Source: Candidatus Marispirochaeta associata (GTDB lineage: Bacteria > Spirochaetota > Spirochaetia > JC444 > Marispirochaetaceae). Taken from it: DNA of 64,000 nucleotides. A program made the position numbers and the translations under genes. Where the stretch lies: assembly GCA_001749745.1 (NCBI GenBank), contig JWTM01000532.1:124001-188000 (forward strand). The letters are read 5' to 3'. Under the pieces are notes generated by a model that saw only the letters and a list, made by a program, of their open reading frames with translations, did no database searches and was not told where the DNA came from. Below, piece after piece: positions 5,459 through 16,847 of this stretch (the first letter of the stretch is position 1; each line of letters starts with the position of its first letter).

Positions 5459-7552
5459 ATGTCGAACAAAGATCCCTGGGATGAATTTCTCGAACAATGG
5501 CCCGTTTCTCGCGTACAATCAATGACCCTGCCGGAGTACTCTACCGCTGGTGATAAGACCACCTTCACCTACTGGCTTGAATTCGGCCTAACAACCTATG
5601 GCGGAATCGGGGGTGGTTCGTCGTTTAAGTTCGGAATCTACTCCCGGGTAAGTAGCGAACACAAGGATTCAAACAACAAGCGTTCCTATAATGATCAGTA
5701 TGGCTGGTACACGAAGGATGGAGAAACACCAGAGGCTGCGTTCCAGACAATAAAAAAGCGTATTGTCTCTGTGGTGGAGCATGCCCAGCACGGTGAGCTT
5801 GAAGCCATAGACGCCATTGACTTGGGACCGACAGTAAAATGGAAGATTGCCTTCCATTATCAAGATCGAAGCAATCCAGTGATTTGTGCAATTTTCCTCC
5901 ATCCGGCCCTTGCGGGTCTTTGCGGTGAGAAACCGGATGCGAAAAAGATTAGCTCCTACTACCGAAAACTCGCTACTCGTCGACGCGAAAATGAGCCCAT
6001 CGTGGAATTCTCACGGCGCCTTTGGGCAGAATGGCAACGGGGTAAGGATGGCAATGAAGTGGTTGAGAGTCGCGATGAACTACCGCTCAATACCATTTTC
6101 TACGGACCTCCGGGAACTGGCAAAACCTATACGACAATAAACAGAGCCTTAGAGATTATCTGTAGAACCGATCCATCTGTTGCAGATGAGATTGCACCGA
6201 TCTTGAACGATCCGAAAGCAGATCGTTCTTTACTTGAGCATACCTTTTACCGGCTAATCGATGCACAGCGTATCGCATTTCTCACCTTCCATCCTTCCTT
6301 CTCGTACGAAGATTTTCTGCAGGGTATTCGGCCTGTTTTGAATGATTCAACCAACAGCATCGGCTATGAGATGAAGGATGGTGTCTTCAAAAAGATCGCC
6401 GACGCCGCCCGGTCTGAATACGGAGAAAGAAAAAAAGGATCATCTCTCTCAGGCCAGGAAAGAATCTTCAAGATGTCCCTTGGGAATAGTCAGATCAAGG
6501 AAGACCAGGAGATCTATGACTACTGCATCGCAGAAGGATGCATCGCCCATGGATTTGCTGAAGGCTTAGATTTTACTCCTTATCTGGAATCAACTGCAGG
6601 TAGAAATGGGCAAAAGCAGATTAAGGAACTGATAAAGAAGGGAGAGATCCGGGATGATTCGCCAGATTTTAGCGCCAAGGTCTGTTGGCGCTTCATTCAT
6701 GACCTACAAGAAAATGATCTGGTAGTAATCTCCCAAGGAAACTTGAAGGTTCGTGCTCTGGGTAGGGTGAGCGGCCCCTATGAATATAGGGGAGACACGG
6801 ATATTCGCTATACACACTTTAGGCCAGTCGAGTGGCTACTTACTGATGTCAGCATCCCCGTGGAACAGATCCAGGAACGTATTTTCTCCCAACAAACCCT
6901 CTATATGCTGAAGCCTGAGAAACTTCATTGGGATAATATCAAGGCACTGGTTGAGCTTCCTCAAGAACCGACTGAGCGACGAAACTATGTACTCATTATT
7001 GACGAAATAAACCGAGGGAACATACCGCGCATCTTCGGTGAGTTAATAACCTTGCTTGAACCGGATAAGCGTCTTCGCCCAGATGATGAGGGGAAACTGC
7101 GCGGCCTGACGGTGAGCCTTCCTGGATCTGCTGAGGGTGAGCGGACCTTCGGGGTGCCGGAGAATTTGTATGTCATTGGAACAATGAATACTGCTGATAA
7201 AAGTATTACTACCTTAGATGTAGCCTTACGACGTCGTTTTGTCTTCAAACAAATGTATCCTGATTACTCCTTGATTGATGATGATGGTTTGCGTGAGTTC
7301 TTGGAGAACATGAATAGGAAAATTTGTGCTCTTAAAGATAAAGATCATCAAATTGGCCACTCTTATTTTATAGGTCGGGAACTTTCAGATTTGGGGATGA
7401 TTCTCAATGGGCAGGTGCTCCCCCTTCTTGATGAATACTTTTTTGGGGATACTACCAAGGTTAAAGAGATCTTTCGGGACCTTACGATTCCGGAGGGGAG
7501 AATCGAGCTTAACAGTTTGGGTGTGCTCCGCTACAAGCAACATGATGAATAG
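5459..7552 (+). CDS. mcrB: McrB-like AAA+ GTPase of a modification-dependent restriction system
   Basis: This is the motor subunit of a McrBC-type enzyme that cuts modified DNA. It has a roughly 200-residue N-terminal domain, presumably for target recognition. The AAA+ domain follows: Walker A GPPGTGKT at residues 216-223, Walker B in LIIDEINRGN near 511-520, the McrB signature GTMNTAD at 574-580, and an arginine cluster (ALRRRF) just after it. Between Walker A and Walker B lies an insert of about 150 residues (roughly 335-480) that resembles an EVE/ASCH-like reader fold. The family uses GTP rather than ATP. AGGAG lies 6-10 bases before the ATG. The 3' end overlaps mcrC by 11 bases. Confidence 0.9.
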   Translation: MSNKDPWDEFLEQWPVSRVQSMTLPEYSTAGDKTTFTYWLEFGLTTYGGIGGGSSFKFGIYSRVSSEHKDSNNKRSYNDQYGWYTKDGETPEAAFQTIKKRIVSVVEHAQHGELEAIDAIDLGPTVKWKIAFHYQDRSNPVICAIFLHPALAGLCGEKPDAKKISSYYRKLATRRRENEPIVEFSRRLWAEWQRGKDGNEVVESRDELPLNTIFYGPPGTGKTYTTINRALEIICRTDPSVADEIAPILNDPKADRSLLEHTFYRLIDAQRIAFLTFHPSFSYEDFLQGIRPVLNDSTNSIGYEMKDGVFKKIADAARSEYGERKKGSSLSGQERIFKMSLGNSQIKEDQEIYDYCIAEGCIAHGFAEGLDFTPYLESTAGRNGQKQIKELIKKGEIRDDSPDFSAKVCWRFIHDLQENDLVVISQGNLKVRALGRVSGPYEYRGDTDIRYTHFRPVEWLLTDVSIPVEQIQERIFSQQTLYMLKPEKLHWDNIKALVELPQEPTERRNYVLIIDEINRGNIPRIFGELITLLEPDKRLRPDDEGKLRGLTVSLPGSAEGERTFGVPENLYVIGTMNTADKSITTLDVALRRRFVFKQMYPDYSLIDDDGLREFLENMNRKICALKDKDHQIGHSYFIGRELSDLGMILNGQVLPLLDEYFFGDTTKVKEIFRDLTIPEGRIELNSLGVLRYKQHDE

Positions 7553-8900
7553 CACAATTGTTCTGTATGAACATCAAACCTACCCTTTGACCTGGGATGA
7601 AGCTTACGCCCTCGAGGAATCGTGCCGTGCGATCTGGAATCAACGGAAAACATCGGTTCTCTATTTGGGGGCAGCCGCTGAGTATTCCGATGTTGATTCG
7701 CCAGCCCAGTCGCTCATTCAGTTTTCGTATTCTCACGATGGTAGAGTAACCATCAAGCCGGGTGGGTATATCGGCATTATTTCGGCAGGAATGGTCCAGT
7801 ACATTATTCTACCGAAAATCTTCCAGGATGTGGATACAGACCAGATCGCCTGCTACCTGGATCGGATGTTTGGGTATGCAGCACAGATTAAGGCTGCCGT
7901 GAGTATGGCAGTGGCAAGTGGAGCGGAGGCATGTAGTGCCATTTTCGCTGAGATACTCATTAATACCTTTGCGAATCGTGTGTGTGCGCTACTCTCGCAC
8001 CGGCAATACAACGCATACCAGGAAGTGGACGAGAATATAAGTACGGTACGCGGGAGGATAGATTTTTCTGAACATGTGAAGCGGAATCTTACCGCAGGGC
8101 GGCATGACCGTATTGCGTGTACCTTCGAGCTTTATCAGGAGGACAACCTTCTAAACCAGATTATAAAATATGTATGCCGGCTTCTGATTGCCCGAACTCG
8201 CTTATACGAAAATCGGCGCATTCTTTCTGCGGCACTCGAGCAGCTTGAAGATGTCTCAGATAGACATGTGGATTATCGATCCTGCTTGCGGATTAAGCTT
8301 AATGCCTACCAACAGGAATATGTTCCGATCCTTGATTACTGCAAGATGTTTCTATCCTATCGCATGGCAGATGTGGCGTCAGGGGAATACGGGATTGACC
8401 ATGTGGTGATCAAGACTGCTGCACTGTATGAAGACTTTGTTGCCGGCTACCTAAGGGAGCACGCTAGTAATATCTGGCGCGTCGAAACGAAAAAAACCGG
8501 ATACATCGCCACCGAAGGCGGGAATCCTCTCTTTCAGTTTGAAAACGACCTTCTCCTGGTTCACCAGGAAATTGACTGCACAATCATTGTAGATGCTAAA
8601 TATAAATCAGTAGAACTTGAGGACCGAAGCAACAAATTCGGTGTTTCACAGGGAGATCTCTACCAAATGATTAGCTATGCGGTCTGTCGCGGAGCACGTA
8701 CGGTTGTACTGGTCTATCCGGGGCGACACGAGTATGCGGATACAGGCCGGGTGCTTCACATTAATGATAGCCGGAGCCGGCTCCCCTTAACGGTACATAT
8801 CTGCACCATTCCGATGGATATCGATGATCAAACAAATGATCACCCCCCTGCATGGCTAGATCGCCTCCTATCAGAGGTCGAATCTATCATGGAGAGGTGA
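7542..8900 (+). CDS. mcrC: McrC-like nuclease subunit
   Basis: This subunit stimulates the McrB motor and carries the DNA-cleaving PD-(D/E)xK site. The C-terminal domain shows D345 in EIDCT followed by D351-A-K353, a good match to the D...(D/E)xK triad, with a conserved glutamine-tyrosine helix (QGDLYQM) shortly after. I chose the ATG at 7542, inside the end of mcrB. The frame is open further upstream but that part is out-of-frame mcrB sequence with no McrC likeness. Length (452 aa) is typical. The 11-bp overlap indicates translational coupling. Confidence 0.9.
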   Translation: MMNSTIVLYEHQTYPLTWDEAYALEESCRAIWNQRKTSVLYLGAAAEYSDVDSPAQSLIQFSYSHDGRVTIKPGGYIGIISAGMVQYIILPKIFQDVDTDQIACYLDRMFGYAAQIKAAVSMAVASGAEACSAIFAEILINTFANRVCALLSHRQYNAYQEVDENISTVRGRIDFSEHVKRNLTAGRHDRIACTFELYQEDNLLNQIIKYVCRLLIARTRLYENRRILSAALEQLEDVSDRHVDYRSCLRIKLNAYQQEYVPILDYCKMFLSYRMADVASGEYGIDHVVIKTAALYEDFVAGYLREHASNIWRVETKKTGYIATEGGNPLFQFENDLLLVHQEIDCTIIVDAKYKSVELEDRSNKFGVSQGDLYQMISYAVCRGARTVVLVYPGRHEYADTGRVLHINDSRSRLPLTVHICTIPMDIDDQTNDHPPAWLDRLLSEVESIMER

Positions 8901-8933
8901 TGAGATACTTGGAGGAAGGGTGAGGATTTCTTG

Positions 8934-11090
8934 ATGGCGATGTTTCCCATCGGTACGATACTGAATCTTGCACAAAGTACTTTCAACCTAACAACTAAAC
9001 AGAAGGATCCGAAGGGACGGTTGCGCAAACGCTTCGATCGGATGGCTAAAGAAGAAGAGATCGACTTCGAGGAGATTGACTCACTCTGGGAGCTGGTAAA
9101 CCAGGAATCAGAGGAGCGTTTATCAGCTTATACGAATCACTTCCTGAATGATCAGTCCTGGTATCTCTATCGTACCGCCTACACGGTCTTAACAACTCAC
9201 TTGTCCGTCATCGGGATTCCGGACCGTATTCTTCATTACATCCTCTGGCGCGAGATCGGCAACTGGGTAGTTATACAGCTCTGCCGTTGGATAGCGCATG
9301 CGCAGGAGGAAGAACTGCCCATGGCATATCATTCAGATCCTCTCTGGTTCTTTCCCCGCTACCAGCAAGAACAGGCATCTCCTTATGCATATCTCTTCGC
9401 CGGGGTGATTTATGGCTTGAACCTTACTGACGAATCGAACCGCATGCTGGTTAATTTATTCGTTCATCCCGAAGACGATGCCATACGGTACGAACAAAAA
9501 TCTAAAGATCGAGAGCGGGAGATGCAGTCCTGGCTTAGTGGTGCGAGTATCCCGCGTTGGAGTACCCTGGAAGATTGTCGGGATGCCCTACAAGTGAATA
9601 TGGGAAACATTCCTGATGGGCAATTACGACGTTCTCGAGCACACATACTCCGCGATTTCACAGAGAATGCGGTTGTTCTATGCTTCAGTTGTGATTTTGC
9701 GGAAAGAATGATTAAGATCGCTGGTCAGTCCGGGTATTCGATGTGGCTTCATAAAATGGCGGAAAATATTGTGCAGCACTTTTCTGAAGACCCACATGGT
9801 GCACTGCAGAATTTCATGATCCCCTCGCCACGGCTGTCTATTAAAGAGATGTTATCAGGCTATATTCAGTATTTGGAGGAACAAGCAGAGATTCTAAGTA
9901 ATGATGTTGATGAACCTGTTGATTCTGGTACTGTTACTGCGTTACATAACACCTGTGCCACTGCACTGAAGAGTCCCACCCTCACAGAAGAGTTATGGAG
10001 TTCGCTCTATTGCGCCCGCTATCAGGAAGGGCCGATTTTTACGGAACTCTTACTCAAGGCCTATAGCCTCGCCTTAGAGCAAGGCGATAAGGTCGCTCTT
10101 TATGAGCTCCATCGTCTGGGCTACTACCATGGACTCTTCAAATCAACCAGTGTAGCAGCTCGATCATGGGTTCGTGACCAATTGGAAGAGCGATTTCCTT
10201 TTTTCATTCTCACGCAGAATGATATCAAGCGTATTAGAAGATGGGCGCCTCGAAGCGTCAATAGCTTCCGAGAAGTAGGGAACTATAAGCGAACCCCACT
10301 TATGATTCATGCCTGGCTGGGAGACCGGATTGAAGTAGAGAAAATCCTACATGCAGGAGCTGATCCGGATCTTCTCTCCGAGGCAAAAAAGCACCGGAAT
10401 GGCGATAATTCATCGGCCCTCTTACTGGCTATTCAAGGTTACCAGCAGTATGTCTGGCAGGAGGAACATCCTAAGTACGCAGCGTATCGTGCAATTATTT
10501 CACTGATTCTTCAGGCGCTGCCAAAAGATGCGAAAAGTTTGGGCGCTTCGACATTAATAAGAAATACGACGCCGCTCTATGCAGCGATTGAATCCTGTGA
10601 TCTGAACGTGGTCGAGGAGCTTCTCACGAAAGGGGCAGCTCCGAATCAGGCTGCTGGAGGAGATTGCTTTTCTCCCCTCTATGGAACTATGAATCTCTTT
10701 GCGTTCTACCGCCGTTTTCGTGAGTGGGATACCGACACCTTCCTGGAATGGCTTTGCTTACCCCATCGGATTGATCCTCATCGTATGCGACTACCACTGC
10801 AACCGGGTATTGTGACCAGTAAAAACTTTTATCAACATCGTCGAATGCTTCTTCACGATCCAAATTTCCAGAGAATCTACCGCAAAGCTGTTGTGCACAC
10901 ATTCCGCCATCCGATTACCGCCGAGGCCAATCTTCTCGCCATTATCGATCTCCTGGCAGAGTATGGAGCAGATCCAAATAGCCTCCAGCCGAACGGTTAT
11001 ACGCCCTGTGATTTGGCGCTGGAGATTGGGAATGAGGAACTGATCGGCTTGATTCAGAAGATTGGCGGAACGAAAACTCTAATCTTGTAA
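8934..11090 (+). CDS. Large hypothetical protein with C-terminal ankyrin repeats
   Basis: I do not recognise the first 450 residues of this 718-aa protein; they look alpha-helical and soluble, with no enzyme motif I can name. The C-terminal third contains at least three ankyrin-like units: around residues 455-490 (TPLMIHAWLGD..VEKILHAGADP), 545-580 (TPLYAAIES..VVEELLTKGAAP) and 672-715 (LLAEYGADPNS..GYTPCDLAL). It starts 33 bp after mcrC with GGAGGAAGGGTGAGGA just upstream; I preferred the ATG at 8934 over the TTG one codon earlier. Position and direction suggest a third gene of the McrBC operon. It may be an accessory, a regulator or a separate ankyrin-type defence effector. Confidence 0.7.
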   Translation: MAMFPIGTILNLAQSTFNLTTKQKDPKGRLRKRFDRMAKEEEIDFEEIDSLWELVNQESEERLSAYTNHFLNDQSWYLYRTAYTVLTTHLSVIGIPDRILHYILWREIGNWVVIQLCRWIAHAQEEELPMAYHSDPLWFFPRYQQEQASPYAYLFAGVIYGLNLTDESNRMLVNLFVHPEDDAIRYEQKSKDREREMQSWLSGASIPRWSTLEDCRDALQVNMGNIPDGQLRRSRAHILRDFTENAVVLCFSCDFAERMIKIAGQSGYSMWLHKMAENIVQHFSEDPHGALQNFMIPSPRLSIKEMLSGYIQYLEEQAEILSNDVDEPVDSGTVTALHNTCATALKSPTLTEELWSSLYCARYQEGPIFTELLLKAYSLALEQGDKVALYELHRLGYYHGLFKSTSVAARSWVRDQLEERFPFFILTQNDIKRIRRWAPRSVNSFREVGNYKRTPLMIHAWLGDRIEVEKILHAGADPDLLSEAKKHRNGDNSSALLLAIQGYQQYVWQEEHPKYAAYRAIISLILQALPKDAKSLGASTLIRNTTPLYAAIESCDLNVVEELLTKGAAPNQAAGGDCFSPLYGTMNLFAFYRRFREWDTDTFLEWLCLPHRIDPHRMRLPLQPGIVTSKNFYQHRRMLLHDPNFQRIYRKAVVHTFRHPITAEANLLAIIDLLAEYGADPNSLQPNGYTPCDLALEIGNEELIGLIQKIGGTKTLIL

Positions 11091-11156: not shown

Positions 11157-11471
11157 ATGAAAATGATTCAGGTGCCGTGTCTGCAGGACACAAGGGAACG
11201 TACACAGTTTGCTCTCTCGTCGCATGCCGAGGAACGCATGCAAGAACATCACCTTTCACCGACAGATGTTGGAACTATCCTCACCCAGGGAGAGTGGTCA
11301 CGAGCGCGTGGGAATCGCACGCTCTACTACTTCCCGGAGTCTCCCTTTCTTGCCTGGCTGGACCCCAGGCGTACTCGTCTTACCGGATATGTGGTAGTCC
11401 TGGCCGCTGATGAAACCATTGTCTCTGTCTATCGGCAGGACTGTCGCTTTCGTAGCGGGGATCTCCGATGA
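11157..11471 (+). CDS. Small DUF4258-like protein upstream of the viperin-like gene
   Basis: This 104-aa protein has the pattern of DUF4258 proteins: a HAEERMQEH motif near residues 23-31, a helix with LSPTDVGTIL, then beta strands ending in VSVYRQ. DUF4258 resembles BrnT/RelE-type small RNA-acting folds, so a toxin-like or nucleic-acid-related role is possible but not shown. No antitoxin-like gene lies beside it. A second ATG is at 11163. Its stop overlaps the start of the radical SAM gene by 4 bases (ATGA), so the two are translated together and likely act together. Confidence 0.65.
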   Translation: MKMIQVPCLQDTRERTQFALSSHAEERMQEHHLSPTDVGTILTQGEWSRARGNRTLYYFPESPFLAWLDPRRTRLTGYVVVLAADETIVSVYRQDCRFRSGDLR

Positions 11472-12331
11472 AGGGGGTGTCATCGTTCGATCAAATGGGA
11501 ACGTTCCATCTGAATATCCATGTGACCAATCGCTGCAATGCACGATGCATCGGATGTTTTGGCTGTTTCCCAGTACATCGTGAGTTAACGATGCGTGAAT
11601 GGTTCCCGATTATTGATCGTCTTCAGGCGCTTACCCGGCATCTCCCGGAGAGAAAGATCAATATCGCTGGCGGAGAGCCGCTCTGCTATCCCGGCCTTAT
11701 TCCACTTCTGCGGTACAGTAAACAGGCTGGCTTCATAACCACTATCATCACGAATGGCCTCTCTCTGTCAGATCTTACCATACCTGGTTTCGTGGATTGT
11801 GTTGATTATATCGGGATCAGCATTGATTCAGCGCGTGAACGGACGAATCGTCGCTTAGGCCGGGCCAGCAAAAGGCGAACCCCCTCGGGGGATTTTTACC
11901 ACTCTCTCGCTACGGAACTGCACAAATACGGAATTCCAGTGAAAGTGAATACCGTCGTCTCCCGGTTTACGGTCCAGGAGGATCTTATCCCGCTCATGCA
12001 GGATCTACAGCCCCTACGGTGGAAGATTCTCCAGTTTACCGAGAATCGCGCCACTCCAGAGAAGTTCCGAAAGCGCTTATCCATCTCAACCGATGCATTC
12101 AAACACTACTGTGATAAAGTGCGTGCTGCTGATCTCCCAGTCGTGTGTGAGGATCGGGAGATGGTTCGCTCCTCCTATCTCCTCGTGGGGCCGGATGGAT
12201 CTGCCATCGGTTGTCGTGATGACTCCTATCAGGTGCAGCCGATTTCCTGGGAACAGATTTCATCCTTATCGGAACTTGAGCAATTCTTTCCACAATTCAG
12301 GCCGGATTCGTTCCGCAAGCGGCAAGGATAG
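11468..12331 (+). CDS. Prokaryotic viperin-like radical SAM enzyme
   Basis: This 287-aa radical SAM protein carries the CxxxCxxC cluster motif at C23-C27-C30 and GGEP at 68-71. Beyond the generic fold it matches viperin. After the ISIDS strand come VKVNTVVSRFTVQEDL at about 158-173 and PLRWKILQF at 182-190, which align with the KINSVINRFNVEEDM and PVRWKVFQ regions of animal viperin, including its nucleotide-contacting Asn (N161), Arg (R184) and Lys (K186). Further on, MVRSSYLLVGPDG..GC aligns with viperin's MKDSYLILDE..NC. Viperins convert CTP, GTP or UTP to 3'-deoxy-3',4'-didehydro nucleotides that stop phage RNA synthesis. The protein ends at KRQG, without the usual tail after KRGG. It overlaps the DUF4258 gene by 4 bases. 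Confidence 0.8.
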   Translation: MKGVSSFDQMGTFHLNIHVTNRCNARCIGCFGCFPVHRELTMREWFPIIDRLQALTRHLPERKINIAGGEPLCYPGLIPLLRYSKQAGFITTIITNGLSLSDLTIPGFVDCVDYIGISIDSARERTNRRLGRASKRRTPSGDFYHSLATELHKYGIPVKVNTVVSRFTVQEDLIPLMQDLQPLRWKILQFTENRATPEKFRKRLSISTDAFKHYCDKVRAADLPVVCEDREMVRSSYLLVGPDGSAIGCRDDSYQVQPISWEQISSLSELEQFFPQFRPDSFRKRQG

Positions 12332-12383: not shown

Positions 12384-12911
12384 TCAGCTTTGGAGGTAGC
12401 GTTTGATGCGCATAGTAAAGATTCGCTCTTCAAGAGCTTTCCCCACCCGAAACAACGGGAGAGCGGCCCAGCCGAACGAGAGGAGCACAGAACCAAGGCA
12501 AAACCAAAGGAGTTGATTGATATCTGGCGGTGTCGAAAGATCCGCTACAATATCGCTTGAGGTGAAAGGGGTGATAAACTCGCTGATCGCCACACCCAAA
12601 AAGAACCAGGCGCCGCATCCATGTTGCTTGTAGGCAAGCCACCATATTAGCGCGACTGGGCAGCCTAAGCCCGCGATTGGGCCGGCCCAGGTAACCAGAT
12701 CAAGTGCCCATCGCCGTGAAATACCTCTGAAGAAGATACTGTTCCAGCCAAGATATTCGGGATTGCCCCCCATCAAGAGCACCATTATATAATGGCCCAT
12801 CTCGTGAAAGAAGGGGGTGAAAAGCCCTACCCAACCCAGGATAGCACCCAGCATAACGCAACCCGACATAAGGATGTAGCGAAGAGCATGTGGATGACCG
12901 GTTATCGCCAT
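12384..12911 (-). CDS. Membrane protein with HExxH motif (M50-like)
   Basis: This 175-aa protein has about four hydrophobic segments and a zinc-protease motif HEMGH at residues 36-40 at the end of the first membrane helix, as in site-2 (M50) intramembrane proteases. A possible third zinc ligand is the Asp in SSDIVADLS further on, but the NPDG-type motif of classical M50 proteins is not obvious. If active, it would cleave a substrate within or near the inner membrane. It faces the viperin-like gene tail to tail and reads out of the repeat-rich region 12,912-13,096, which should contain its promoter. Confidence 0.6.
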   Translation of the reverse strand: MAITGHPHALRYILMSGCVMLGAILGWVGLFTPFFHEMGHYIMVLLMGGNPEYLGWNSIFFRGISRRWALDLVTWAGPIAGLGCPVALIWWLAYKQHGCGAWFFLGVAISEFITPFTSSDIVADLSTPPDINQLLWFCLGSVLLSFGWAALPLFRVGKALEERIFTMRIKRYLQS

Positions 12912-12955
12912 AATCCAATTGTAGCACAGCCATTCCCCTTTCTCTTTCTAGTCCA

Positions 12956-13089
12956 GTGTACTTTCTGTACTTTGTGTACGTGATATAGAGTAAGGGGTTC
13001 TATAAAGAATAGACAGATACTACGATACCAGAGAGACCAATGAAGGTTCTGCTGGTATCGTAGCATGTACAGTAAGTACACGGAATACA
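12956..13089. repeat. 9-bp-spaced GTAC boxes and nested inverted repeats in the mobile region
   Basis: GTAC occurs at 12958, 12967 and 12976, exactly 9 bp apart. A mirrored set starts at 13067 and 13076, with ATAC at 13085, also 9 bp apart. The 15-bp arms 12956-12970 and 13067-13081 are inverted repeats with one mismatch. Between them is a perfect 12-bp inverted repeat, CTACGATACCAG at 13020-13031 and its complement at 13052-13063, with a 20-base loop. The array lies between the stop of the RepA-like gene and the start of the HExxH gene. It looks like an iteron-type origin, a recombinase arm-site cluster or an operator; the sequence alone does not decide. Confidence 0.75.
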
Positions 13090-13096
13090 CTACGCG

Positions 13097-14068
13097 TCAG
13101 GGCAAGCAGTAACATCCATGTTGTGGCTTACATATGACGCCTTCTTTCACCATATCCCTCAGAAGATTGCCCGTATTTTGCTTTGTTTTCCCGATTGCCT
13201 CTTCTATGGAACCCGCCTTCTGGGGCTCTGGATGTTCTCGGAGATAGTTAATGATTTCTTGACGGGCGAGAGTCGGCTGCAACAGGTCAGCGGAGCCACG
13301 CAGTGACCAGCGTCCATGGTCTGGATCAAACTCAAGGGCATAGGCTGCCTCCTCAACATCCCGGCCGGTGATTTCCAAGAGTGCACTTCGAGCATTGCGA
13401 GCGCGGCGCATCAGAAGAATAGTATCCGCCGCTCCGGTAAGCCCGGTAGATCCCGATACCTGGTCCAAGAAATCACTCGCATCCGCCTTACGAGTATGGG
13501 TTACGACCAGTATTGGAATCCCCTCATCATCCGCGACCTTCTTGAGACGTTCAATATCCCCATAGTCAGCATCGTAGAGGGAGGTCGTCGAAGGACGATC
13601 GCGTTCGCGGACGCGGGCCAGTGTGTCGATAATCACGAACCGGATATCCGGGTGTTTAAGAAGTACCTGATGGAGCTGTATCCGACTCTTTTCCCCTCGG
13701 GGCCACTCGGTACTGAGGAGAAGGTGTGGCGTCTCCTTCGCTTCCATCTGGTCGAGCCGATGACGAAGGCGATAGGGCGGGTCTTCCAGGGCAAGATAGA
13801 GCACCGTAATCTGGGGCGCTGGTGCATGATCCAGTGCCATCCCCCCTATTGCACAGCTGTAGGCCAGATTGAGTACCAGAAAACTCTTGCCGAGCTTCGG
13901 TGCGCCGGCCAAGACCGTGAGCCCTGCCGGAAGAATACCGGGTATGATCCAGTCGATATGTGGTGGCTCTGCAGTTTGTAAATCAGCCATAGTCCAGATT
14001 GTCGGCAGTGCATACTCGTCCTTTTCAGATGAACCGTGAGGCTGTTCCGTTAGTGCGTTTCTGGCCAT
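13097..14068 (-). CDS. RepA-like (AAA_25, RecA-fold) ATPase
   Basis: This 323-aa protein is related to the hexameric helicase RepA of RSF1010 and to RecA/KaiC-like ATPases common on plasmids and integrative elements. Walker A is GAPKLGKS at residues 55-62, a catalytic glutamate is in ALEDP near 95, and Walker B is FVIIDTL ending at D148. A winged-helix-like tail (LREHPEPQKAGSIEEAIG) may bind DNA. It probably serves replication or transfer of the element. It overlaps the end of the preceding small gene by 19 bases, and all element genes to the integrase run in the same direction. Confidence 0.85.
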   Translation of the reverse strand: MARNALTEQPHGSSEKDEYALPTIWTMADLQTAEPPHIDWIIPGILPAGLTVLAGAPKLGKSFLVLNLAYSCAIGGMALDHAPAPQITVLYLALEDPPYRLRHRLDQMEAKETPHLLLSTEWPRGEKSRIQLHQVLLKHPDIRFVIIDTLARVRERDRPSTTSLYDADYGDIERLKKVADDEGIPILVVTHTRKADASDFLDQVSGSTGLTGAADTILLMRRARNARSALLEITGRDVEEAAYALEFDPDHGRWSLRGSADLLQPTLARQEIINYLREHPEPQKAGSIEEAIGKTKQNTGNLLRDMVKEGVICKPQHGCYCLP

Positions 14069-14358
14069 AACAGCCTCATAAGATCCCGCGCAATACGACG
14101 ATACTGACGATCAGACAATGAGTAATTGCAGAAATCCTGGTAGAGGCGCGAACCGGGATAGAACGCAGCCAGGTAATCCTTCCAGTCGAAGACCAGACAG
14201 ATACAGCGTGTACGGGGCAGATAGGGAAGAATCGGCGCTGATCCAGGTAAAAGACAGTCGCCCACTCGGTAGAGCGATAGGTTTTGCTCTACGCATGCTT
14301 CTATGGTTCGGTCAATCTTCTGTTTCCATTCCTGGTCTGCAATTGAATTATGCTTCAT
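14050..14358 (-). CDS. Small hypothetical protein of the mobile element
   Basis: I do not recognise this protein of about 102 aa. It is soluble, without a signal peptide or membrane segment. I chose the ATG at 14358, which overlaps the end of the HTH gene by 11 bases; a start at 14388 is possible but would overlap more. It is coupled to the RepA-like ATPase downstream and may be a replication accessory. Confidence 0.55.
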   Translation of the reverse strand: MKHNSIADQEWKQKIDRTIEACVEQNLSLYRVGDCLLPGSAPILPYLPRTRCICLVFDWKDYLAAFYPGSRLYQDFCNYSLSDRQYRRIARDLMRLLWPETH

Positions 14359-14533
14359 GGTGTGACCCTCCTGCCTGGTGCTGATCAAGCCAGCGCATCA
14401 GTTCGTCTTCGCGGAAGAGCAATCTCCTTCCAAGATGCATATGTGGAAGGGAATGATTCTGTATGTGTCGATACAGGGTTGCACGTGAAATTCGTAAGAA
14501 CAGAGCTGTTTCCTTAGCAGTGAGTATTCTCAT
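14348..14533 (-). CDS. Excisionase-type helix-turn-helix protein
   Basis: This 61-aa protein matches the short MerR/excisionase-like DNA-binding domain: LTAKETALFLRISRATLYRHI is the helix-turn-helix, followed by the wing LGRRLLFREDELMRWL. Such proteins control integration or excision or act as element regulators. I chose the ATG at 14533 because a GGAGGT ribosome site lies exactly 6 bases upstream; the frame is open to 14563 but without such a site. Confidence 0.85.
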   Translation of the reverse strand: MRILTAKETALFLRISRATLYRHIQNHSLPHMHLGRRLLFREDELMRWLDQHQAGGSHHEA

Positions 14534-14683
14534 TCTGCTACCTCCAAAGAAATTTGATTTCACGACGTTCTACGTGTCGACACATCGCGTCATGTTTTAT
14601 CAAGAGTAACGGAGGGAAGCATACGAAAAGTAGTACGAAATATTTTCATCTGAATGGGGAAGCGGAAGGAGTGGTCAGCTAAT

Positions 14684-15484
14684 TTACAGAAATATGTAGT
14701 TTATTTCCGTTCGTGTATTTTCTGGAGCCTCTTCCTTCGGAAGTCGGTCGTATTCAATGCGATGATCTCCATGCAGGACATACCGAGCACACAGCTTAGT
14801 CAACGGAATGAGGAGTAACCCTTCTCTTTTCAATTCACGTAAAAATGCTTTGACAAAATATGTGGTAGTAGCCTTGGGGAACCAGATTTGCATACCGTCA
14901 GCAAAACATTTTTCTTGTTCACTGGCTCGGGAGAAGATGCGTTGCACCTCCTCCAAGCGGAACGGCTGCCATATCCGGGTATCCTCCAGGATCGATTTTG
15001 CACTCGTACTTAAAATCTCTCCATACTCCTTGGTAGGTATGGCAAACTCTTCAAACTCAACATCACTCATGTCTACTTGGTCTTGAAGCATGCTTTGGTA
15101 ATCAAGGAAATCGAGTATACCTTTTAATTGGGTGTAAACAAGAAGTTCGTCGATATTCGTAATAGTTATATCCTCAACGGTTTCTACCCGATCACCACGC
15201 TTCTGGAGGACTAAGCGAAATGCTTCATTCTCGATGATGCTGACATCATTATCAGAGAGAGGAAGGATTTGCTTCGCCTTTGCAGTGACCTTTAGGGGGG
15301 AAATTTCTGGATGCTCATCAAGCAGTTCTCGATATCGCTGGAAATCTTCTCGAAAGCGGGAAAGCACATAACGCAGGTACTGTTTGGCGGCATGAACCGG
15401 TGCCCGTCGTGAGTGCACAAAATGAAAAATGCGTTCGTAATCATAGTCAAAGAGGGGGAGGTGTTCCCGTACTTGATCACTCAT
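14684..15484 (-). CDS. Hypothetical protein co-translated with the integrase
   Basis: I do not recognise this 266-aa protein. It is charged and soluble, probably largely helical, with no catalytic motif I can name. Its start overlaps the integrase stop by 4 bases (ATGA), so it is translated together with the integrase and probably belongs to the element's core. The base composition is more AT-rich than in the integrase gene. Confidence 0.6.
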   Translation of the reverse strand: MSDQVREHLPLFDYDYERIFHFVHSRRAPVHAAKQYLRYVLSRFREDFQRYRELLDEHPEISPLKVTAKAKQILPLSDNDVSIIENEAFRLVLQKRGDRVETVEDITITNIDELLVYTQLKGILDFLDYQSMLQDQVDMSDVEFEEFAIPTKEYGEILSTSAKSILEDTRIWQPFRLEEVQRIFSRASEQEKCFADGMQIWFPKATTTYFVKAFLRELKREGLLLIPLTKLCARYVLHGDHRIEYDRLPKEEAPENTRTEINYIFL

Positions 15485-16641
15485 TCCTGTTCCTCCCAGA
15501 GCCGCTCTTGACTTGCAGCAATATCCTGATAGTGCTCCAGATCAAACTGGGTGTACTGGTCGGTCATTCGTTGGGTCATATGGCCGGTGATCGCCTGAAC
15601 CTTCGCATCGGAGATATTGTTCCCGCGACAGTAGGTATTGAAGAAATGACGCCAGGAGTGAAAGACGATACCTCGCTCCTTTCGTTCTAATTCGTCGATC
15701 CCAATCCGGCCTAAGGCGCGATAGAGGGCGCGGGTGACGGTCCGGCTGGCAATCGGCGTCACCCCGGCATCGAGGGAAAAGAGGAACTGGTTAGTGGTGC
15801 CGGCAAGCTGGGTGAGGTACGCACTGACCCGGCTGGGGATCGGGACGATCCGGGTGCGACTCGTCTTGGTCCCCTTGAGCCTGCTGGTCGGGCGATAGGC
15901 GTGATTCACCTCAACATGGGTCGTATGGACCTCCTGGGCGGTCAGGGCCAACAGCTCAGATTGACGCATCCCGGTGGCTGCCGCGGTCAGGTTGAGGGTG
16001 AAGTGAACCAGATGGCCGTCCCAGATTGTCTCCAGAGCCTCATCATTTAAAAGCCGGCGCACCTCTTGGAGGGTAAGAATCCCGCGCCGGGCATGCTCTT
16101 CATGCAAGAGGGGCACCGGCTTCCCCACATCGACGGGGATATCCCCCAGCCGGGCGGCCTCGGAAAGGATCTTCTTGAGGTTCTTTAAGGCGTGATTGAT
16201 GGTTGCATCCGATTTCTTCCCAACTGCCTTCATCTGCATCAGCCACTCCTCGATCATACGGGTGGTAATCGCCTTGATCTTGACCGATCCGAAGGCGGGG
16301 TGTAGATGCTGCACCAGCTCGCTGCGGCGGCTCTGAGCATACTCGGGGGTCAGGGATCGGGGATTGCGTGCCAGTTGGCGGGAGATGTAGGGGCAGGCAT
16401 CCCAGAGCCACCAGGTCGCGGTATAGTCGGCGAAGGTCGGATTGGGTGAGCGGTCCGGCAGCAATTTCCCGTCGCGAATCAGCTGATTCATGTGGTCCAT
16501 GAAGCGGGCCTTGGTGGAACAGCCGGTGGAAATGGGACCGGTGCGGTTCCCGTTCGTATCATAGGTCTGGTAATAGAAGACTTTGACGCCTTTTTTGGTG
16601 GTGCGCGTGTAGTAGGTGTAGGGTTGCCGGTAGCGTGGCAT
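15481..16641 (-). CDS. int: Tyrosine recombinase (phage-type integrase)
   Basis: This 386-aa site-specific recombinase has an N-terminal SAM-like core-binding domain (about 65-165) and a C-terminal catalytic domain (about 185-375). Catalytic residues visible are R226 (ATGMRQSEL), H328 and R331 (HSWRH), H354 (ITGHM) and the nucleophile Y363 (DQYTQ). Its gene starts 135 bp from the 3' end of a tRNA-Gly gene, the classic arrangement for an element that integrates into that tRNA. Confidence 0.95.
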   Translation of the reverse strand: MPRYRQPYTYYTRTTKKGVKVFYYQTYDTNGNRTGPISTGCSTKARFMDHMNQLIRDGKLLPDRSPNPTFADYTATWWLWDACPYISRQLARNPRSLTPEYAQSRRSELVQHLHPAFGSVKIKAITTRMIEEWLMQMKAVGKKSDATINHALKNLKKILSEAARLGDIPVDVGKPVPLLHEEHARRGILTLQEVRRLLNDEALETIWDGHLVHFTLNLTAAATGMRQSELLALTAQEVHTTHVEVNHAYRPTSRLKGTKTSRTRIVPIPSRVSAYLTQLAGTTNQFLFSLDAGVTPIASRTVTRALYRALGRIGIDELERKERGIVFHSWRHFFNTYCRGNNISDAKVQAITGHMTQRMTDQYTQFDLEHYQDIAASQERLWEEQE

Positions 16642-16738: not shown

Positions 16739-16775
16739 CTCGATGCAATTCCTTGTGCTACAAATAATTAAGTAC

Positions 16776-16847
<72 letters not shown>

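Follow-up and report, generated by a model that had tools for sequence, protein, structure and literature searches.

The window analysed here, a stretch of 64,000 nucleotides (contig positions 124001-188000) from the 5.25-Mb draft genome of Candidatus Marispirochaeta associata, for which contamination is estimated at 11%, contains most of an integrative element of about 22.6 kb that is flanked on both sides by a 46-bp repeat, a copy of a tRNA-Gly 3' end. One copy is the 3' part of tRNA-Gly(TCC) itself (repeat at 16775..16820, minus strand; gene at 16776-16847), and the second is found at about contig position 118199, 5.8 kb to the left of the window. Reading inwards from the tRNA gene, one encounters a tyrosine integrase (15481..16641), a 266-aa ORF to which no family could be assigned (14684..15484), an HTH_17/AlpA-like regulator or excisionase (14348..14563; PF05930, 23.5 bits against a cut-off of 21), a 112-aa ORF of the replication/integration module, also without a family (14050..14388), and a RepA-like initiator helicase (13097..14068), all on the minus strand, followed by the array of short repeats that is our subject and then by the cargo genes. 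A preliminary description of this DNA had named a RepA-like ATPase and an integrase as the neighbours of the array, and this is borne out: the helicase gene adjoins it, and the integrase belongs to the same element. We recognised no primase in the element, and no terS, packaging or capsid gene among those of its genes that were scanned, which are part of the gene set. Elements with repeats of this kind are inserted at this tRNA gene in two genomes of the same genus as well; one is 16.5 kb long, its integrase and RepA being 61% and 35% identical to those described here, and the other is 5.9 kb long and has a different integrase. About 79 bp from attachment repeats the tRNA end recurs in part, perhaps as a trace of former insertions (contig ~118144-118223 in L009; 12796-12874 and 18736-18815 in L013).

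The array begins 7 bp past the repA stop codon. Its unit is a 9-bp box with the consensus TGTACTTNN, present in three consecutive copies on the plus strand (TGTACTTTC, TGTACTTTG and TGTACGTGA; 12957..12983) and in three inverted copies on the minus strand (TGTATTCCG, TGTACTTAC and TGTACATGC; 13063..13089), the two sets being separated by a spacer (12984..13062) that we presume to be the melting region. The GTAC cores noticed earlier are indeed at 12958, 12967, 12976, 13067 and 13076, with ATAC at 13085, and the accompanying 15-nt inverted repeat (12956-12970/13067-13081, 14 of 15 positions matching) can be extended to 31 nt at 74% (12955-12985/13061-13091). The spacer is about 59% A+T compared with 47% in the flanks, only a moderate enrichment, and the spacers of other family members range from 28 to 78%.

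To score such arrangements we used a hexad detector that looks for a run of three boxes, spaced 8-10 bp apart, opposite a run of three in inverted orientation, with a maximum score of 42; it replaced an 8-mer scan with one mismatch allowed, which had found arrays in several relatives though it was blind to that of the window. The array scores 38 and is the top hexad of the window, the next independent match scoring 34, and in 40 Markov shuffles of the 64-kb sequence the top scores were only 33-35, none of them reaching 38. The 15-bp motif, with at most one mismatch, occurs nowhere else in the 5.25-Mb genome. A search against Rfam gave no match above threshold. The box core TGTACTT is present in six copies in the window where 2.7 would be expected, and one extra copy (16770-16776), which may be there by chance, adjoins the 3' end of the tRNA-Gly gene on the side of the element.

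Within the spacer lies a perfect 12-bp inverted repeat with a 20-nt loop (13020-13031/13052-13063). It had been described as a hairpin sitting between mirror-image box sets, and it is found between them, though not placed symmetrically: the midpoint of the boxes is at about 13023 and that of the hairpin at about 13041, beside the right-hand set. No other perfect 12-bp inverted repeat whose loop measures 3-60 nt occurs in the window, 7 of 20,000 shuffled spacers contained one, and DNA folding of 12950-13095 gives z = -5.8. None of the relatives described below has a counterpart, most of their spacers containing no comparable inverted repeat, while the long inverted repeats in the spacers of an Armatimonadetes locus (L101) and of plasmid pATHE01 (L102) derive from extra copies of the boxes. 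The hairpin is thus real but not conserved, and we rejected it as a conserved part of an origin. A hairpin downstream of repA might also suggest a transcription terminator behind that gene, and boxes this short a mere chance arrangement. Yet no terminator-like site was found here, a 20-nt loop and a missing T-run are not terminator-like, and neither the outcome of the shuffles nor the retention of the layout in relatives fits chance, so that we find an explanation of this sort scarcely credible.

The RepA-like protein has 323 aa and an AAA_25 domain (1.7e-28), with a core of the DnaB/RSF1010-RepA type. By its family profile the nearest solved helicase is RSF1010 RepA (1g8y, 1.4e-18), followed by weaker matches to DnaB and Twinkle helicases. 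The predicted structure (pLDDT 82.5, pTM 0.72) matches DnaB, RadA and RepA folds, and the modelled C-terminal end (residues ~267-321, encoded at 13106..13270 on the minus strand) is a winged helix of the order helix-helix-helix-strand-strand, in agreement with weak matches of this protein and its relatives to MarR-type and winged-helix families. This domain is our candidate for the reader of the boxes.

Homologues were collected by class-wide and phylum-wide profile searches, from viral contigs and genome contigs, and by tblastn on phages and plasmids, and therefore represent several collection methods and not a random sample. A single-protein search of the viral contigs gave no RepA relative, and the scan of genome contigs yielded four loci, one of them already in the set; most relatives were supplied by the profile searches of genomes, the viral contigs and tblastn. 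At each locus a domain HMM set the end of the conserved region, the 600 bp around that end were scored, and proteins with an HMM score of at least 160 were counted as family members; 34 of these could be scored, one more being interrupted by a contig end. Shortly beyond the winged helix, 23 of the 34 members had the three-plus-three layout with a score of at least 36, one more scored 35, and 11 of the 34 lacked such an array there. Among 850 control tiles taken from these loci, 9 (about 1%) reached 36. More distant AAA_25 relatives, 13 in number and among them pPNAP08 with its RepA of the IncQ type, did not reach that score in any case. A lack of conservation in related elements, by which the preliminary description would have judged the arrangement fortuitous, is therefore not what we observe.

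The carriers of the layout are found in Spirochaetia, in Armatimonadetes, on plasmids of Caldicellulosiruptor and Tsukamurella, and in gut phage contigs, and the sequences of their boxes differ. In L060 the boxes are of the type TGTAAAC (score 41/42) and in L069 of the type GTGATAG (39), while an Armatimonadetes MAG (L101) has CGAATAC (42), pATHE01 of Caldicellulosiruptor bescii TTCACTC (42), the Tsukamurella plasmid (L103) TGAAAGT (39) and a gut phage contig (L106) ATCATTG (41). Of 96 spacings between boxes, 74 measure 9 bp, even though 8 and 10 bp were equally allowed. That one layout is retained with so many different box sequences indicates a selected architecture rather than simple inheritance of a sequence. 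Of 24 arrays, 14 have their left set within the 3' end of the repA frame, and in 10 of those 14 the right set lies there too, so that the C-terminal tail of these RepA proteins would be translated origin. Where the frame crosses the iterons, similar C-terminal motifs are seen in L008, L049, L060 and L069 (QVPLF, NFEIF, DLEIF and DRPIF), which resemble SSB-tail or clamp-binding motifs. One RepA homologue (L061, G066:C39) has no array on its 3' side; its 9-bp array, of the ACTTTTACC type, instead precedes repA, with boxes of the same type further off, which raises the possibility that the origin can move.

Such a distribution also bears on the suggestion that the array is a recombination site, that is, the arm-type integrase sites, the resolution site or the attP of the element. 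The integrase gene is nearby, arm sites of integrases are often closely spaced repeats, and a copy of the box core adjoins the tRNA end (see above). The attachment repeats, though, are the 46-bp tRNA-Gly copies, at distances of 3.7 kb and 18.9 kb, and an array that is internal to the element they bound is not its attachment site; as a candidate for that role it was rejected, since the core that the element and its chromosomal target have in common is found in those repeats instead (16775-16820 and about contig 118199). Furthermore, the array is missing from all eight loci that have related integrases and no RepA, and it is present on pATHE01, an 8.3-kb plasmid with an annotated AAA_25-family helicase and no annotated integrase. 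The array thus goes with RepA and not with the integrase, and we consider a recombination site highly improbable.

If the winged helix reads the boxes, similarity between boxes should follow similarity between winged helices. We compared the two in 18 replicons with a complete winged helix and observed a Mantel rho of 0.39 (p 0.0006; partial 0.34), whereas for the ATPase domain the value was 0.20 (p 0.06; partial 0.06). Box similarity thus tracks the winged helix and not the ATPase, which points to the former as the probable box reader.

The same result weighs on the idea that the array is an operator at which RepA, or the AlpA-like HTH protein, controls the rep operon or the cargo gene starting at 12911. 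The array does lie upstream of that ORF (12384-12911), operators typically contain boxes in inverted orientation, and autoregulation is frequent among initiators. On the other side, no sigma-70-like promoter was found nearby, the inside of the repA frame, where the left set falls in 14 of 24 replicons, would be an odd place for an operator, and box sequence follows the winged helix of RepA. An operator role, which was among the functions first proposed for the array, is compatible with the data as such; what it leaves unexplained is the pattern, in which the layout is constant while the downstream gene varies between elements. We therefore regard it as unlikely.

The remaining proposal, a replication origin, is strongly supported, the layout being kept 3' of RepA-like helicase genes in unrelated replicons that include a small autonomous plasmid. 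As judged from sequence comparison, the array is very probably the oriV of the 22.6-kb element. In such an origin, the winged helix of RepA would bind the 9-bp boxes, in line with the covariation, and the three boxes on each side, in their opposite orientations, would nucleate two RepA assemblies facing each other, as the symmetry of the array and the two-hexamer model for SaPI Rep (see below) would lead one to expect. ATP-driven opening of the A+T-richer spacer could then load helicases for two forks, and the hairpin might, more speculatively given its lack of conservation, serve as a cruciform or a priming site. An origin of this kind may still be active in the present-day element.

Among known origins, one may first consider that of the IncQ plasmid RSF1010, since, of the helicases with solved structures, its RepA comes closest by profile. 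Repeats occur together with hairpins in the RSF1010 origin, and in IncQ plasmids RepA is without a winged helix and iterons of about 20 bp are read by a separate RepC. Here the boxes are of 9 bp and the winged helix is fused to the helicase, and the IncQ-type relative pPNAP08 has no three-plus-three array at its RepA gene.

A closer parallel is provided by the phage-inducible chromosomal islands (PICIs), whose origins, tested experimentally, have two iteron sets directly 3' of rep, an arrangement described as common to no other known bacterial replicon (PMC6092414). The array shares with them its place immediately 3' of the gene of an initiator helicase, the two opposed iteron sets around a spacer (here three and three) and, as the covariation suggests, the reading of the iterons by the C-terminal domain of the helicase. 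PICI-type origins also have an A+T-rich region between the two sets, where our spacer shows the moderate enrichment given above, and their rep together with the origin drives autonomous replication; of the present layout, it is the copy on plasmid pATHE01 that may correspond to this. The origin of EcCICFT073 (strain CFT073, L121:3997-4284) has 9-bp CTGTCTACC-type boxes, in groups and on both strands; the box period is the same, but the groups are more numerous and less regular than here. Its Rep is of the D5_N/Pox_D5 (SF3) type, as opposed to AAA_25 (DnaB/RepA type) in our element, so that the likeness is one of organisation and not of helicase family. By its Rep the element differs from PICIs, its RepA being AAA_25 and not a D5/SF3-like protein; an AlpA-type regulator near the integrase is a trait that it has in common with them. 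SaPI Rep binds iterons downstream of its own gene through the C-terminal domain, apparently as two hexamers, and the putative origin of SCCmec Cch2 is similar in that a helicase uses a C-terminal domain to bind direct repeats beyond the end of its gene, but with three 5-nt iterons and a D5-type helicase instead of inverted 9-bp boxes in two sets of three (PMC7581432). In the Sulfolobus plasmid pRN1, too, the origin is just 3' of a primase-helicase gene that ends in a winged helix, and a hairpin is present; there, however, the helicase is SF3, the stem-loop is about 100 nt long and iterons are missing, whereas here it is the boxes that are conserved and not the hairpin (PMC4234260).

We lean towards the view that these loci represent a widespread class of replicons, found on islands, plasmids and phages of several phyla, in which a DnaB/RepA-type helicase with a winged helix is combined with three plus three inverted 9-bp iterons at, and often inside, the 3' end of its gene, so that in many of them the C-terminal tail would be translated origin, and in which the design of PICI origins is used with a different helicase superfamily. 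Since it recurs in several phyla and also on a small plasmid, the design may be a general, recognisable signature of the origins of self-loading initiator helicases. The novelty of this view is stated relative to the open-licence literature, and arrays of single plasmids, such as pBAL/pATHE01, may already have been described. In practice, looking for three-plus-three inverted 9-bp boxes where a helicase/winged-helix gene ends offers a simple sequence test for origins in uncharacterised islands, plasmids and phages, and the loading of a DnaB-type helicase without a separate loader becomes directly testable.

As for the cargo, the genes in the left part of the element, which extends beyond the window, are defence-like (5459-11090 in the window and L009:11990-18655). 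They include a complete type I restriction-modification set, a SoFic-like Fic protein, an ankyrin-repeat protein and a McrBC-like pair, the first gene of which has a PD-T4-1-like N-terminal stretch. A same-genus element at the same tRNA-Gly (L008:11315-18000) has DISARM-like DrmA/DrmB genes and a methyltransferase instead, so that this tRNA-Gly appears to be a hot spot at which defence cargo can be exchanged. Just beyond the putative origin and an M50-like ORF, a DUF4258-like protein of 104 aa is followed by a radical SAM protein (11157-12331), possibly a small modification cassette.
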